This document shows, piece after piece, positions 4,887-52,112 of a stretch of 64,000 nucleotides of DNA (positions within the stretch are counted from its first letter, which is position 1; every line of letters begins with the position of its first letter). A program made the translations under genes and the position numbers. The notes beneath the pieces were generated by a model. That model did not search any database and was not told the origin of the DNA. It saw only the letters and a list, made by a program, of their open reading frames with translations. Source of the DNA: Bacilli bacterium (GTDB lineage Bacteria; Bacillota_I; Bacilli_A; RF39; UBA660). Location: NCBI GenBank assembly GCA_017541445.1, contig JAFXZC010000009.1:103699-167698 (forward strand), written 5' to 3'.

Positions 4887-5306
4887 TTATCTCTTACTGA
4901 ATTGTGGAGCACGACGTGCTTTTTTAAGACCTGGTTTTTTACGTTCTTTAGCTCTAGAATCTCTAGTAACAAATCCGTTAGTCTTAAGTACTTTACGATA
5001 AGCATCTTCTCTAGATTGATCAGCATCTGCATCGAATGCTAATAATGCTCTAGTAATACCTAATCTAATAGCACCAGTTTGACCTGAGAAACCGCCACCT
5101 CTAACTGTAACATCAACATCGAATTTATCTTCATTTCCAGTAGCAACTAAAGGTTGTTTTAAATCCATTACTAATACTGCAAAAGGCATATATTCATTAA
5201 CATCTTTACCATTAACAGTAATCTTACCTTTTCCTGCAGTTAATCTAACTTGAGCAATAGAACGTTTTCTACGTCCAGTAGCTGTCCATACTTGTTTATT
5301 AGCCAT
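4887..5306 (-). CDS. rpsI: 30S ribosomal protein S9
   Basis: 139 residues, close to the usual bacterial length. The protein shows the S9 hallmarks: [13 protein letters not shown] near the N-terminus, the [12 protein letters not shown] segment in the middle, and the basic C-terminal tail [12 protein letters not shown], whose final Arg contacts P-site tRNA. It follows rplM by 13 bases, the standard bacterial pairing, and both are last in the ecf-truA-rplM-rpsI cluster. Confidence 0.97.
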
Positions 5307-5319
5307 AATTTAATCCTCC

Positions 5320-5751
5320 CTAGTTTACTTTCATTTCAGATGGTTTTTGAGCAGCATGTTTATGATCAGGACCAGCATAAACGAATAATTTCTTACCCAT
5401 TTCTCTTCCTAATCTACCTTTTGGTAACATACCACGTACAGCTCTTTCAACCATTTCTTCAGGATATTGAGCAATCATTGTTTTAGCAGTTCTTTCTCTT
5501 AATCCTCCTGGATATCCACTATGATTGTAATATTTCTTATCAGTTAGTTTCTTTCCAGTTAATTTAACCTTTTCAGCATTTACTACGATTACGTAGTCTC
5601 CACAATCAACGTGAGGTGTATAAGTTGGTTTATGTTTTCCTTCTAATACAGTAGAAACTTTAGTAGCTAATCTACCTAAAGCAACACCCTCAGCATCAAT
5701 TACATACCATTTACGTTCAACAGTTTCTTTTTTTTGCATAAATGTATTCAT
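5320..5751 (-). CDS. rplM: 50S ribosomal protein L13
   Basis: I choose the ATG at 5749-5751 because AAGGGA lies upstream; this gives 143 residues ([19 protein letters not shown]), the normal L13 length, while a longer in-frame start adds 15 uncharacteristic residues. Conserved blocks include [23 protein letters not shown] and the VRGMLP segment. L13 is an early 23S rRNA assembly protein. The leader (about 5752-5830) holds the phrase GCAGAGGAGAATCG just before the ribosome binding site. This may be the autoregulatory L13 leader RNA found in Bacillota, but I could not fold it to confirm. Confidence 0.96.
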
Positions 5752-5890: not shown

Positions 5891-6610
5891 TCAATATTCG
5901 ACACTTTCTAGATATAATCCACTAGCTGGAGCAGTATAAATACTAATTTCATCCTTACTTTCTAAAGCATTCTTAATATATTCTATACTCTTATTTCCCC
6001 TTGCAACATCTATCATAGCTCCAACCATATTCCTAACCATATATCTATAAAAACTCTTACCACTAAATGTAATATTCATAATATTATCTTTCATATCAAA
6101 ATTTATATCATAAACAACACATTCTGTATTATCTCTTTCTCCAGATACAAAATTATGAAAATCATGAACTCCTATAAATAATTTAGCTACTTCCTTCATC
6201 TTATCTATATCTAATTTATATTCTGGTTGATAATAATAATCATTCTTACAAGGATCATATTCACCAAAATTAATTTTATATACATATTCTTTCTTTAAAA
6301 CATTAAATCTAGCATGAAAATTATCATCTACTTCTTTAACATCACTAACAAATATATATGGTTTAACTAAACTATTTAAAGCCTCTTTTAAACCATATGT
6401 ATCAATATTAATATCTAATTTAAAAGAAACACATTGACCATGAGCATGAACCCCTCTATCAGTTCTCCCTGCCCCTTTAATTAATACTTCTTTCTTATTA
6501 ATCTTACTTAAAGCTTCTTCTAATACTTTCTGTACACTAGTTTCTTCATTAAGTCTCTGAAATCCATAAAACTTACTGCCATCATAAGCTACCTTAATAA
6601 CATAATTCAC
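5891..6610 (-). CDS. truA: tRNA pseudouridine(38-40) synthase TruA
   Basis: 239 residues, normal for TruA. The catalytic motif GAGRTDRGVHAHGQ (catalytic Asp in RTDRGVHA) lies near residue 47, and the C-terminal RYMVRNMVGAMIDVARG block is typical. The start is a GTG (6608-6610) with GGTGAG upstream, one base after the ecfT stop, so it is probably translationally coupled. The order ecfA-ecfA-ecfT-truA is the standard Bacillota arrangement. Confidence 0.95.
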   Translation of the reverse strand: MNYVIKVAYDGSKFYGFQRLNEETSVQKVLEEALSKINKKEVLIKGAGRTDRGVHAHGQCVSFKLDINIDTYGLKEALNSLVKPYIFVSDVKEVDDNFHARFNVLKKEYVYKINFGEYDPCKNDYYYQPEYKLDIDKMKEVAKLFIGVHDFHNFVSGERDNTECVVYDINFDMKDNIMNITFSGKSFYRYMVRNMVGAMIDVARGNKSIEYIKNALESKDEISIYTAPASGLYLESVEY

Positions 6611-6611
6611 A

Positions 6612-7343
6612 CTATCTCACCACCATAATATAATAAACAATTAAAAATACATCATATAAAACTATTACATAATCAATAAATGATAATTTCTTATGATAAT
6701 TATTTCTTTTATTATAACCATTAAACCCCTTTTTTAATATATATCTTTCTCTTTTTCTTAAATCTTTTTTACTATCTCTATAAATATCTTTAATACTACT
6801 TAATACTAAACCCCATCTAACTATAAAAGATCTATATCTAATATCAAACCCATTATATTCTATATTATCTACTCTATTATTAAGATTCTTAATAAATAAC
6901 TCTTTAAAACACAATAACTTATAAAATTTATATTTAATTCTCTCTTTATATATACCAATATTAAATATACTACCTAAACTATTACTTAAATCTTCTTTAG
7001 TAGTACTAAGAATAATTACATATATAAATAAAATAGTAAAAATAACATATAACAATATATAAGTAATAGACATCCAACTATAATTCTTATATAAAAAGAA
7101 AATATATAAGAATATCAATAATAATTTAAAATTCCATATTACTTTTAAATATTTAAATACATATATATTACTAAATAAAACAAAACCTAATACTAAACTT
7201 ATATTACATATAAATAATATATTATTAAATTTAAAACACAAAACAATAATATATACTATAAAAGATATTATCTTAATAATAGGATTCATATTATGAATAA
7301 TAGATTCTTCATAATTATAACAATGATTATACTTATCTAACAT
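6612..7343 (-). CDS. ecfT: ECF transporter transmembrane component EcfT (divergent)
   Basis: 243 residues with an N-terminal segment NMNPIIKIISFIVYIIV, typical of the EcfT/CbiQ family, followed by several hydrophobic helices. The conserved C-terminal coupling region, which in most EcfT proteins carries two Ala-Arg-Gly motifs contacting the ATPases, is only loosely kept here (NGFDIRYRSFIVRWG, KGFNGYN). EcfT links the two ATPases to a substrate-binding S component; no S component is in the window. The assignment depends partly on position between the ATPase genes and truA. Confidence 0.8.
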   Translation of the reverse strand: MLDKYNHCYNYEESIIHNMNPIIKIISFIVYIIVLCFKFNNILFICNISLVLGFVLFSNIYVFKYLKVIWNFKLLLIFLYIFFLYKNYSWMSITYILLYVIFTILFIYVIILSTTKEDLSNSLGSIFNIGIYKERIKYKFYKLLCFKELFIKNLNNRVDNIEYNGFDIRYRSFIVRWGLVLSSIKDIYRDSKKDLRKRERYILKKGFNGYNKRNNYHKKLSFIDYVIVLYDVFLIVYYIMVVR

Positions 7344-26336: not shown

Positions 26337-26349
26337 AAAATCACCCAAA

Positions 26350-26432
26350 ATAAAAAGTGCACACGTACAGAGGCTATGTAAGCTGCTACCTTCCGATCCT
26401 GACTTGGTCATAGTATATCCGTTGCACAAACA
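26350..26432 (-). ncRNA. ffs: Signal recognition particle RNA (4.5S-type)
   Basis: The minus-strand transcript contains the universally conserved SRP core: GTCAGG and GGAAGGTAGCAGC around a tetraloop, closed by a helix whose outermost pairs are GTGCA/TGCAC. It ends in TTTTTATTTT near 26350. Length about 80 bases, i.e. the short type without an Alu domain. It binds Ffh. Exact ends are approximate. Confidence 0.9.
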
Positions 26433-26470
26433 TATATTACCAAAAGAAATAAAAATAATCAACTTTAATA

Positions 26471-48497: not shown

Positions 48498-48590
48498 GTT
48501 AACGTAAACCAAGTATTAATGAATTGACAAAGAACTATATAGATTATATAGTAAATTTGAGAAGTTATACTTCTTAAAAGAGTGGTAAAA

Positions 48591-49850
48591 ATGAAGAAAA
48601 TGATAATAGAAGGACAACATGAATTAACAGGAGAAATTAAAATTAGTGGAGCTAAAAATAGTGTAGTAGCATTAATTCCAGCTGCAATTCTATCTGATGA
48701 TGAAGTAACTTTATATAATGTACCAAATATTTCGGATACTAAATCATTAATAGATATTGTAGAATTACTAAATGGTAAAGTAGAATACAAAGATGAAGTA
48801 ATGAAAATAAACACTACTAATATAGAAAATAAAGTAGTACCAGAAGAAATGGCTAAAAAGCTTAGAGCATCTTATTACTTTATGGGAGCTTTATTAGCTA
48901 AATATAATTATGCAGAAATATATTTCCCAGGTGGATGTAATATTGGAGCAAGACCTATAGATTTCCATATTAATGGATTTAAAAAATTAGGTGCAGAAGT
49001 TACAATCGAAGGAAATAAATATGTATTTAAAGCAGAAAAATTAAAAGGAGCTAGAATATATTTAGACTTTGCATCTGTTGGAGCAACTATTAATATAATG
49101 TTAGCAGCAACTAAAGCAGAAGGAACAACATATATTTCAAATGCAGCAAAAGAACCTGAAATAGTAAATGTTGCTTCTTTCTTAAATAGTATGGGTGCTA
49201 AAATAACAGGTGCTGGAACTAGTGAAATCAAAATAGTAGGTGTTAAAAAATTACATAAAGGTGTAATTGATGTAATACCAGATAGAATAGAAGCAGGAAC
49301 ATATGTAATAATAGGATCTCTACTAGGAAAAGATTTAACTATAAGTGGAATAATAGAAGAACATATAGAAGCTTTATTATCTAAATTAAAAGAAATGGGC
49401 GTTAAAATAAAAGTTAATAAAAATAAATTAATAATTAATAAACCAGATAAATATAAAGCTATAAATGTTAAAACATTAGTATTCCCAGGATTTGCAACAG
49501 ATTTAGGTCAACCAATGAGTGTTCTATTAACTCAAGCGACAGGTATGTCTATATTCGAAGAAACTATCTATGAAAATAGAATGGGTCATATAAAATATTT
49601 ACAAAAAATGGGAGCTAACATAAGACCAAGTGAAAAAACAGCAATAATAACTGGACCTACACCTCTTAAAGGAGAAGAAGTAGTAGCAACAGATTTAAGA
49701 GCTGGTGCTGCTATGGTAATAGCTGGTCTTATAGCTAAAGGAAAAACTACTGTTAATGATATAGAACATATTCTAAGAGGATATGAAAATATAGTAGAAA
49801 AATTAACTGCAGTAGGAGCAAAAATAAAAATTAAAGAAGAAGAAAACTAA
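48591..49850 (+). CDS. murA: UDP-N-acetylglucosamine 1-carboxyvinyltransferase
   Basis: 419 residues from the ATG at 48591. EPSP-synthase fold. The catalytic Cys is present in FPGGCNIGARPID near residue 108, with the SGAKNSVVALIPAA start and ATDLRAGAAMVIAGL. It commits UDP-GlcNAc to peptidoglycan synthesis and is the fosfomycin target; it shows that the organism has a wall. It stands alone between two terminators. Confidence 0.95.
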   Translation: MKKMIIEGQHELTGEIKISGAKNSVVALIPAAILSDDEVTLYNVPNISDTKSLIDIVELLNGKVEYKDEVMKINTTNIENKVVPEEMAKKLRASYYFMGALLAKYNYAEIYFPGGCNIGARPIDFHINGFKKLGAEVTIEGNKYVFKAEKLKGARIYLDFASVGATINIMLAATKAEGTTYISNAAKEPEIVNVASFLNSMGAKITGAGTSEIKIVGVKKLHKGVIDVIPDRIEAGTYVIIGSLLGKDLTISGIIEEHIEALLSKLKEMGVKIKVNKNKLIINKPDKYKAINVKTLVFPGFATDLGQPMSVLLTQATGMSIFEETIYENRMGHIKYLQKMGANIRPSEKTAIITGPTPLKGEEVVATDLRAGAAMVIAGLIAKGKTTVNDIEHILRGYENIVEKLTAVGAKIKIKEEEN

Positions 49851-49870
49851 CATTTTATTAGTTTTTTTTT
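49842..49870 (+). terminator. Rho-independent terminator of murA
   Basis: Stem AACTAA/TTAGTT followed by T8, overlapping the murA stop. Confidence 0.75.
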
Positions 49871-49882
49871 GATAAGATAAAT

Positions 49883-49911
49883 TTGACATCAACTCTAATA
49901 TTTGATAAAAT
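49883..49911 (+). promoter_or_regulatory. Strong sigma-A promoter of the large noncoding RNA
   Basis: TTGACA at 49883-49888 and TAAAAT at 49906-49911, spacer exactly 17 bases. No open reading frame follows, so it drives the RNA starting near 49918. Confidence 0.82.
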
Positions 49912-49917
49912 GTGTAG

Positions 49918-50398
49918 CATGTGATGGTGCATTATCCTAGTCACATATACTATTTGAAGGTAGGGCTAAAAATCTACCAAATTGTACTGATAGACACTTT
50001 GCATATCTGCTTGATTCGCCCAGATTCGGGTGGTTATGTAATTTAAGATTTAAGGATTGTCATAATGGCATATGATTAACTTCCTTTTATCCCGTCAAGC
50101 ATCCAATGACCAGTGCATGTCGTGAGTGGTTATGTGGGATTTCAATGATTAATATTGAATGAAAATGTGATTGCAAAAGCGAATAAGAATAGTCACTATG
50201 TGTTAGAGAAATTCTCTAGGATGTCATGATTATAAAGTTTGAGGTGCGGACTAAGTGGTAATCGAGTATTCGAACAGGTAACATTCGGATAACACTTTCA
50301 AAGAGAAATCGCCAAAGAGTAATCGATGGTAGGTGTTAGAGAAATTCAACTCGACCAAAGCCGTAAAATTAATTTATAGTATACCATTCATTTTTTTT
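49918..50398 (+). ncRNA. ole: Large structured noncoding RNA, probable OLE RNA (divergent)
   Basis: About 480 bases without a credible gene, bounded by a strong promoter and an 8-base T run at 50391-50398. Many local stems are visible: ATGTGA/TCACAT near 49919-49955, GGTAG/CTACC near 49960-49979, and others. It has a higher G+C content than the surroundings. The gene directly downstream encodes a protein I recognise as OapA-like, the OLE-associated protein. OLE RNAs of Bacillota lie directly upstream of oapA, so I call this OLE. The RNA is shorter than the usual about 600 bases. It lacks RNase P RNA, tmRNA and group II intron core motifs. The call rests on context, not on a covariance-model hit. 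Confidence 0.7.
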
Positions 50399-50424
50399 AC
50401 TAATACTTTATAAGGAGAGTTAAT

Positions 50425-50949
50425 ATGAAGAGTAATGTTAACTGGATATATAAAGTTTTTTTATTGACTTTTATATTATCCATAGTTTTTAGTGGTATAT
50501 CCGCTGCTATTACAAATTCTTTTAATGAGATAGTATTATTTATCATATTATTATTAACAATTTTATTAGGAATTGTCTTTGATATGATAGGTGTTGCTTT
50601 CTTAACAAGCAAAGAAGCTTCATTACATGCAAGAGCTGCTCAAAAAATAGCTGGAGCTAAAGAAGCAATTGCTTTATTAAAAAATGGAACTAAAGTATCA
50701 TCAGTATGCCAAGATGTTATTGGAGACATATGTGGTATCATCAGTGGTAGTTTAGGAGCAGTATTAACAATGAGTCTTGTAGATCTATTTGATTTACCAA
50801 ACTTATTAACAACAATAATAATAACAGCTGTAATATCATCATTAACAGTAGGATGCAAAGCAATATCAAAAGAAATAGCATCTAAGAATAGTGATAAAAT
50901 AGTATTTACCGTAGGTAAAATTATACACTTTATCTCATTTAAAAAATAA
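50425..50949 (+). CDS. oapA: OapA-like OLE-RNA-binding membrane protein
   Basis: 174 residues with four hydrophobic segments (about 9-29, 36-58, 100-122, 127-146). Conserved-looking blocks: FDMIGVAFLTSKEASLHARA, then KIAGAKEAIALLKNG and VSSVCQDVIGDICGIISG (residues 91-108). From memory, these match OapA, an inner-membrane protein that binds OLE RNA and is needed for stress and Mg or cold tolerance in Bacillus halodurans. GGAGAG ribosome binding site, 26 bases after the RNA's T run. I cannot align it here. If it is not OapA, it is an uncharacterised membrane protein. Confidence 0.72.
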   Translation: MKSNVNWIYKVFLLTFILSIVFSGISAAITNSFNEIVLFIILLLTILLGIVFDMIGVAFLTSKEASLHARAAQKIAGAKEAIALLKNGTKVSSVCQDVIGDICGIISGSLGAVLTMSLVDLFDLPNLLTTIIITAVISSLTVGCKAISKEIASKNSDKIVFTVGKIIHFISFKK

Positions 50950-50955
50950 AAAATA

Positions 50956-50983
50956 CTTGCTTATAAAAATTCTTATGATATAA
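50956..50983 (+). promoter_or_regulatory. Promoter of rpmE
   Basis: TTGCTT and TATAAT about 17 bases apart, roughly 60 bases before rpmE. Confidence 0.6.
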
Positions 50984-51044
50984 TACATAAGACGAAGAAA
51001 TTACTATATCTATAAATATAGATATGGCGGAAGGAGAAAATAAA

Positions 51045-51260
51045 ATGAAAAAGGGAATACATCCAGAAGTAAAAGATTGCAAAGTTACTTGTGCTTGTGG
51101 AGCAACATTTATGACAAAATCAACTAAAGATGAAATACATGTTGAAGTATGTAGTGAATGTCATCCATTCTATACTGGAAAACAAGGAAAAGCTAAGAAA
51201 ACAGGATCAGTTGAAAAATTCAATCGTAGATATGGTTTTAATGAAGAAGCCTCTAAATAG
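51045..51260 (+). CDS. rpmE: 50S ribosomal protein L31
   Basis: 71 residues from the ATG at 51045 (GGAAGGAG upstream). [16 protein letters not shown], then CACG and [12 protein letters not shown]: a four-cysteine zinc ribbon, i.e. the zinc-containing (C+) L31 type. Single-gene unit with own promoter and terminator. Confidence 0.96.
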
Positions 51261-51308: not shown

Positions 51309-52112
51309 ATGAAGAAAACAATCATAGGAGGTATTCTAATATTAATTGGTTTATTTTGTTTATACGGATATGTATCTATAAAAATATCTGAATCGAAAGC
51401 AAATAGAAAATTAGAAGATATAGTATTCTTATCTAAAAACGAATATCTAGAAGAAAATGAAAATAAACTAGTAATATTAAGTGGTCAATTTATACCAAAA
51501 GAATTAGCAACAGATGATCAATTTAATACTAATATTATTTCACCCGTAATAACAAGATTTGTAGAATATTATAAAAAAATAGATGACAATTATCGTTGGG
51601 AAGTACAATACGAAGAAAGTGAAAAATATAAATATAAAAAAGAAATATTTACTGGATCTGTATCATTAGGTGAATTTACTATTACTGGAGATACATTAAT
51701 AAAAATGTCTAATAATAAACCATATCAAGGATTCAATAAATATGATGCAGAACAATATAACTTAAAATTAGAAGAACATAAAAATACAAGTACTTATTTA
51801 ACCGAAGCACCTAATGTAAAAAATGAAGATAATAATTCAAAATACGAAGATAAAATGCGTATATATTATACATATTATGATATGTCTCAAGTAGAATCTA
51901 AAACAATAGTAGGAACACAAAGAGATCATAATATAGTATCTACAGATGATTTTGAAGTACAAGTATATGATGGAACCAAATCACAAACAGAAGTAATTAA
52001 TAGTTTAAGAAAAACAAATACAAGTGGAGAATTGTTCTCTTTAGGAGCATTCCTTCTATTTGAAATATTTGGTGTATATTTAATAATAACAAGAAATAAA
52101 GATAGCATTTAA
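51309..52112 (+). CDS. TMEM43-like two-helix membrane protein
   Basis: 267 residues from ATG 51309 (AGGTGATA upstream). One membrane helix at each end (IIGGILILIGLFCLYGYV; LFSLGAFLLFEIFGVYLII) enclose about 210 residues outside. ENENKLVILSGQFIP followed by SPVITRFVEYYKKID ... YRWEVQYEE recalls TMEM43 (DUF1625) proteins, where a NEGKLV-hxG block precedes repeated charged segments. The function of bacterial members is unknown. Alternative: unrelated hypothetical. Confidence 0.5.
   Translation: MKKTIIGGILILIGLFCLYGYVSIKISESKANRKLEDIVFLSKNEYLEENENKLVILSGQFIPKELATDDQFNTNIISPVITRFVEYYKKIDDNYRWEVQYEESEKYKYKKEIFTGSVSLGEFTITGDTLIKMSNNKPYQGFNKYDAEQYNLKLEEHKNTSTYLTEAPNVKNEDNNSKYEDKMRIYYTYYDMSQVESKTIVGTQRDHNIVSTDDFEVQVYDGTKSQTEVINSLRKTNTSGELFSLGAFLLFEIFGVYLIITRNKDSI

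Follow-up and report, generated by a model that had tools for sequence, protein, structure and literature searches.

In the 64,000-nt stretch of bacterial DNA analysed here (hereafter the window), a murA-like gene and an oapA-like gene are separated by an interval in which no plus-strand open reading frame of at least 60 amino acids is listed, raising the question of whether this interval encodes an OLE RNA and, if so, which form of it. The original prediction had read the interval as a gene-free and stem-rich OLE RNA, about 120 bases shorter than usual, directly before an OapA-like gene and between murA and rpmE, and had proposed a covariance-model search and an examination of homologues for covarying helices as checks. 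The Rfam OLE model RF01071 matched positions 49908–50403 of the plus strand with 235 bits (gathering score 50, E = 4.6e-65) and was spanned in full, from model position 1 to 616; the bounds given for the RNA are those of this match. The flanking genes were as predicted. Upstream lies the murA-like gene of the EPSP synthase family (48582–49850, plus strand; PF00275, 306 bits), with prfA-like and prmC-like genes also upstream of the RNA. Downstream, oapA (50425–50949, plus strand) begins 21 nt past the Rfam end, and is followed by an L31-Firmicutes ribosomal leader (51004–51036, plus strand; RF03156, 35.2 bits) lying 5' of rpmE, which encodes bL31 (51048–51260, plus strand; PF01197, 102.6 bits). 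The protein of 267 aa encoded 3' of rpmE (51309–52112, plus strand) had no Pfam match at 0.001 and no match listed in the neighbour search of the fetched loci. Elsewhere in the window, a bacterial small SRP RNA is encoded on the minus strand (26344–26438; RF00169, 46.1 bits).

At 496 nt against 616 model positions, the window RNA is shorter by about 120 nt owing to the absence of P7 and P8, with model positions ~190–277 either deleted or set against 19 unaligned bases. Such RNAs have been described. Fernando and Breaker (2024; PMC11332333) reported OLE RNAs from gut bacteria of RF39 and TANB77, whose genomes are reduced, and, in the text of that article, distinguished full-length OLE, a variant 1 of TANB77 with short P7–P9, and a variant 2 lacking P7 and P8 that is common in, and not exclusive to, RF39. 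The suggestion that an OLE RNA at this locus would extend the range known for these RNAs was therefore anticipated by that work, which already places variant 2 in RF39 gut bacteria.

To describe the fold, RNAs of 470–545 nt were grouped as variant-2-length (44 RNAs); L088 (543 nt, 398 bits) was placed with the longer class, except in the count of distances to oapA, where it is kept with the 470–545-nt RNAs. Forty of the 44 were aligned, including the window RNA and leaving out L004 (close to L003) and L106–L108, which fall outside the variant-2 clade in the OapA tree. RNAalifold gave a consensus of 119 base pairs, 76 of which show compensatory changes on both sides, and a consensus energy of -91.46 kcal/mol with a covariation share of -23.08. 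The many local stems that had been predicted and the covarying helices named as a check are thus borne out, and no helix corresponding to P7 or P8 is present in this consensus. Helix names are our own assignment, made by matching the hairpin order of Rfam to published text. All on the plus strand, the consensus pairs place the 5' strands of the P2/P3/P3.1 region at 49933–49954, paired with 50188–50223; the P4 hairpin at 49959–49978, with a loop CUAAAAAU that is invariant in 40 of 40 RNAs; and the 5' strand of P4a at 49983–49986, paired with 50114–50117 (alignment columns 82–85 and 235–238). P5 (49999–50041) carries a loop GCCCA and P6 (50047–50091) a loop with GGCA, and the GCCCA and GGCAT (GGCAU) columns are likewise invariant in all 40. 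P9 occupies 50120–50182, its apical hairpin P9.3 being parsed as a short stem with the loop GAUUAAU, and the 3' domain (domain 2) extends over 50224–50380, where the hairpins at 50269–50338 are probably P12 and P13.

In the cryo-EM dimer (PMC12286853), L4 forms bridge B1, L5, L6 and L7 form B2, and L9.3 forms B3. Judging by the invariant loops matched to this assignment, the window RNA retains L4 (B1) and, of B2, the share contributed by L5 and L6. L9.3 is reduced in most RNAs of this lineage. A palindrome of at least 4 in L9.3, the covariation of which was already reported in PMC12286853, was found in 39 of 41 parsed longer RNAs (L088 lacks one and that of L138 is doubtful; a further longer RNA was unparsed), and the P9 tip region measures 72–81 nt in 40 of those 41. 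Among the variant-2-length RNAs, 43 of which were parsed, the region is shorter than 60 nt in 36 (L126, counted in these 36, was misparsed), and in the window it is 44 nt with a weak palindrome, AUUAAU. The window RNA therefore shares with full-length OLE (RF01071; H. halodurans, C. acetobutylicum) the end-to-end model match, the L4, L5 and L6 loops, domain 2 and a downstream oapA, but differs from it in length (usually ~600 nt), in the absence of P7, P8 and the kink-turn motif, and in its weak L9.3 kissing loop.

A strong promoter, TTGACA-17-TAAAAT, had been predicted to start the RNA, and a site with 11 of 12 consensus positions was indeed found at 49883–49911 of the plus strand (TTGACA at 49883–49888, TAAAAT at 49906–49911). 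Within the 1.4 kb scanned (49700–51100) seven further promoter-like sites were present, each with 9/12; the total of eight is not above chance (9.1 in shuffles), and the predicted site is the sole one reaching 11/12. Its place is conserved: when each locus is represented by the best site within a 60-nt stretch about the start of the OLE, at least 10/12 is reached in 41 of 43 variant-2-length loci, 37 of 41 longer loci and all three loci with a mini OLE of ~380 nt (described below), compared with 4.4% of shuffled stretches; loci lacking enough upstream sequence were excluded. On the basis of this promoter, the true 5' end probably lies ~10 nt inside the start of the Rfam match. At the other end, the predicted T-run exists as eight T at 50391–50398, but its reading as the end of the RNA gained no support, as no terminator-like site was found in 49700–51100.

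The absence of a terminator-like site between the RNA and oapA would suit an element that is a mere cis-acting leader of oapA, a structured 5' UTR controlling OapA synthesis with no task of its own, as would the short gap to oapA (4–6 nt in the three minis, median 22 nt in the 45 loci with RNAs of 470–545 nt). A simple leader sits awkwardly with the 8 of 85 variant-2-length and longer loci in which the nearest OapA frame lies 0.2–4.1 kb downstream, and with the OLE RNA of H. halodurans, reported to be ~630 nt long, highly abundant, part of its own protein complex and associated with deletion phenotypes (PMC9723947). We consider a leader without a task of its own improbable. Very probably, the window encodes a functional variant-2 OLE RNA, with its own promoter probable and read-through into oapA, forming a membrane RNP with the OapA encoded beside it.

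The sole Pfam match in the window OapA, a protein of 174 aa, is the CNNM domain PF01595, with a score (28.5 bits) just above the cut-off of 28.4. The protein contains DVIGD, an instance of the DxxxD motif described for OapA in PMC11332333, and all three OapA proteins of the mini loci contain DVVGD. The partner proteins were sought in 54 genomes of relatives, comprising 25 with variant-2-length, 3 with mini, 18 with longer and 8 without OLE matches. OapA was present in all 46 with an OLE and in none of the 8 without; since an OapA query had supplied 16 of the 46, the independent count is 30/30. The text of PMC11332333 describes OapA as indispensable and OapB and OapC as largely missing in the variant lineages. 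The L7Ae-family, OapC-type domain (PF01248) was found in none of the 54 genomes, the 25 that carry a variant-2-length RNA included (controls 7/14), and bS21 was present in 51 of 54. OapA is mostly 166–176 aa long beside short RNAs and mostly 176–215 aa beside long RNAs. From these sequences, the OLE RNA and its partner seem to shrink together.

The weak CNNM-domain match is a likeness of the window OapA to the MpfA/CorC/CNNM transporters, from which it differs in its 174-aa length without a further domain. CorC_HlyC, the mark of MpfA, was found in 0 of the 54 genomes (controls 11/14). Nothing suggests that MpfA has replaced OLE in the eight OLE-free genomes (G022, G033–G035, G037 and G040–G042, all of the same order), given that they too show neither CorC_HlyC nor OapA.

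A genome scan with the OapA query returned 70 loci, the six nearest being 66–71% identical and labelled uncultured Bacilli or Bacillales, and OLE was found in all 20 whole genomes chosen from these loci and searched. In a sample of 146 genomes from the order of genome G001, with sizes of 0.6–2.4 Mb, OLE matches were present in 95: 60 of 543–617 nt (333–437 bits), 4 in-between forms of 534–562 nt (248–291 bits), 29 window-like forms of 480–519 nt (206–248 bits) and 2 of ~380 nt. In the genus of G001, 13 of 15 genomes have an OLE, all of 479–491 nt. A sample from the family of G046, overlapping the order sample, yielded OLE in 129 of 193 genomes, including the third mini in G248. Beyond these, OLE of 597–678 nt precede oapA in Bacillus niameyensis (L045), Fervidibacillus (L056), Agathobaculum (L030) and Butyricicoccus (L018).

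The remaining 51 of the 146 order genomes had no match under strict filters; either the RNA is dispensable in some relatives or it was missed in incomplete assemblies. Taken with the loss of P7 and P8, the mostly reduced P9.3, an inner TAA in the OapA frame of G087 and one locus with an OapA frame of only 126 aa, these absences could indicate a decaying remnant, a shortened RNA heading for loss in reduced genomes. Decay is nonetheless the least probable of the readings considered here, and very improbable, given 155 columns invariant across the 40 variant-2 RNAs, the compensatory changes of their consensus pairs, the retained promoter and OapA matches free of inner stops in 45 of 46 genomes. 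A functional variant-2 RNA remains the preferred reading.

The relationships among the loci were examined in an OapA tree of 87 loci, obtained from 89 with an OapA frame by removing the fragment L104 and the locus with the 126-aa frame. Forty variant-2-length and three mini loci form one clade (support 99/96), in which the window pairs with L002 (98/84) and the three minis group together (100/100). The murA-ole-oapA-rpmE order is also found in other loci and is not peculiar to the window: the 1.5 kb upstream of the RNA include murA at 13 of 38 assessable variant-2-length loci, 2 of 3 mini loci and 0 of 9 longer ones, and for rpmE in the 1.8 kb downstream the counts are 15 of 43, 0 of 3 and 0 of 12, respectively. 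In L003–L005 an ATP-grasp gene directly follows rpmE. The window RNA is a real OLE of variant 2, ordinary for its clade, and confirms with independent loci a short OLE class already published. Judging by the variant type, the genome sizes in the order sample and the labels of the nearest loci (MAGs of uncultured Bacilli, Bacillales or Tenericutes), the host is probably an uncultured gut member of the Bacilli from the GTDB order RF39. It agrees with the variant 2 of PMC11332333 in lacking P7 and P8, keeping the conserved core and the adjacent oapA, and in the absence of OapC-type proteins from the relatives tested. Added here are the loss of the kink-turn motif, a candidate 3-bp helix, the mostly reduced P9.3 and the conserved own promoter, part of which the figures or supplements of that article may show.

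OapC is an L7Ae-type kink-turn binder (PMC9723947). By a rough pattern of our own, G[TC]GGAGA, the J6/7 part of the kink-turn was present in 30 of 42 longer, 0 of 44 variant-2-length and 0 of 3 mini RNAs, and the J4a/5 part in 37 of 42, 5 of 44 and 0 of 3. The J6/7 motif persists in most longer RNAs (for example L052 and L071–L100), and an L7Ae-type protein was found in 0 of 18 of their tested genomes. At the place of the kink-turn in longer OLEs, positions 49993–49995 of the window (plus strand, J4a/5 side) could form a candidate 3-bp helix with 50094–50096 in J6/7. Across variant 2, 83% of cells pair, against 17–32% in slid controls, and 20 of 120 cells do not. Changes on both sides occur in 10 cells, with one pair appearing as C-G, G-C, U-A and A-U. 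The percentage paired was reached by none and the covariation score by two of 500 shuffles, while neither the count of pairs changed on both sides (340/500) nor that of pair types (133/500) was better than in shuffles; the helix was noticed on the same alignment on which these figures were obtained. In variant 2 the kink-turn motif is gone and, as a lead, a short J4a/5:J6/7 helix may have replaced it, a change of which no description was found in the text, figures and supplements aside, of the OLE literature searched.

The shortest forms are the three mini OLE RNAs of 378–381 nt, each before an intact oapA: L101 in G046 (5001–5378), L102 in G054 (5001–5381) and L141 in G248 (6001–6378, minus strand). 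The Rfam model spans L101 and L102 end to end, with model positions 74–277 set against 12 and 14 bases. In sequence, P4 is followed by the stem TTGTTAA...TTAACAT, whose loop is a few bases long and which is read here as a capped P4a helix, and then by P9. On this reading, all beyond P4a has been excised, that is P5–P8 with the bS21 and OapC sites and the L5/L6/L7 dimer sites. The three minis are 90–95% identical to one another, and each has the promoter and, 4–6 nt downstream, the intact oapA. Of the 85 consensus pairs tested, the three RNAs retain 83, 84 and 84, and they hold 110, 111 and 110 of the 122 variant-2-invariant columns outside P4a–P8 (90–91%). No variant-2 RNA scores so low when compared with the rest (median 100%, minimum 96%), and the loss in the minis falls mostly in P9. 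By region, domain 2 retains 56 of 57 invariant columns, the 3' strand of P3 all 14, the 5' arm 29 of 31, the 3' strand of P4a with P9 11–12 of 20, and P5–P6 none of 32. For two of the minis RNAfold gives another hairpin at the tip of P9, so that kissing through L9.3 is at most a possibility in these RNAs.

Exact-match pattern searches recovered only these three, in 3 of 385 order genomes and 3 of 386 family genomes (overlapping samples), and forms still shorter were absent from the 58 genomes covered by a pattern search. Several further candidates were rejected. A 280-nt OLE in G013 proved, with more flank, to be a longer OLE cut by the contig end, as did the other OLE fragment of that genome; a second OLE match of G174 and the match of G203 lie at contig ends and were not counted, and L104, mini by length, is a fragment. 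In G248, a frame between murA and the mini OLE (L141, ~6400–7150, minus strand) resembles by eye a secreted SGNH-type hydrolase. An assembly artefact is an unlikely origin of the minis, as they occur in three separate species-level assemblies; because the three are one lineage, the form represents one evolutionary event. An OLE without P5 and P6 is not described in the text, figures and supplements aside, of PMC11332333, PMC12265935, PMC12054373, PMC9723947 or PMC12286853. We regard it as likely that these RNAs are a natural minimal OLE, present in three species that form one clade inside the variant-2 radiation: P5–P8 are cut out and a short loop closes P4a, while purifying selection keeps the promoter, P4 with its A-rich loop, the P4a region of the OapA site, P3, P9, domain 2 and, beside the RNA, an intact oapA.

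For the window RNA, a mechanism can be proposed by analogy with published work. Transcription would probably start at its own strong promoter and read through into oapA. OapA, reported to bind near P4a (PMC12265935), would bind near P2 and P4a and hold the RNA at the membrane, as H. halodurans work and cryo-EM suggest, and two RNAs would pair at L4, giving bridge B1, and at L5/L6, which contribute to B2. As in H. halodurans, the RNP may aid in coping with stress, Mg2+ stress included. With L7 gone and L9.3 reduced in most RNAs of the lineage, a smaller dimer is predicted, held mainly by B1 and L5/L6 and working without OapC. On our reading, the lineage has trimmed the RNP on the side of domain 1: P7/P8 and the kink-turn were shed together with a large share of P9.3, one branch dropped the whole of P5–P8, and selection keeps domain 2, P3, P4/P4a and OapA.

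The mini form and the possible replacement of the kink-turn are the parts that merit specialist attention, the mini deletion being the most useful lead. If the mini is functional, the binding of bS21 and of OapC, like the dimer bridge of L5/L6/L7, would be accessory, the core of the device would be domain 2 together with the connection of P3/P4a to OapA, and dimers would form only through L4 and perhaps L9.3. The text of PMC12265935 proposes that the functions of the domains that OapA lacks relative to MpfA might be localized to domain 1; in the mini species this would have to rest on P4, P4a and P9, or would fail there. A single order holds a graded natural deletion series of ~600, ~490 and ~380 nt, through which the parts of OLE needed for OapA binding, membrane placement and dimers become testable.
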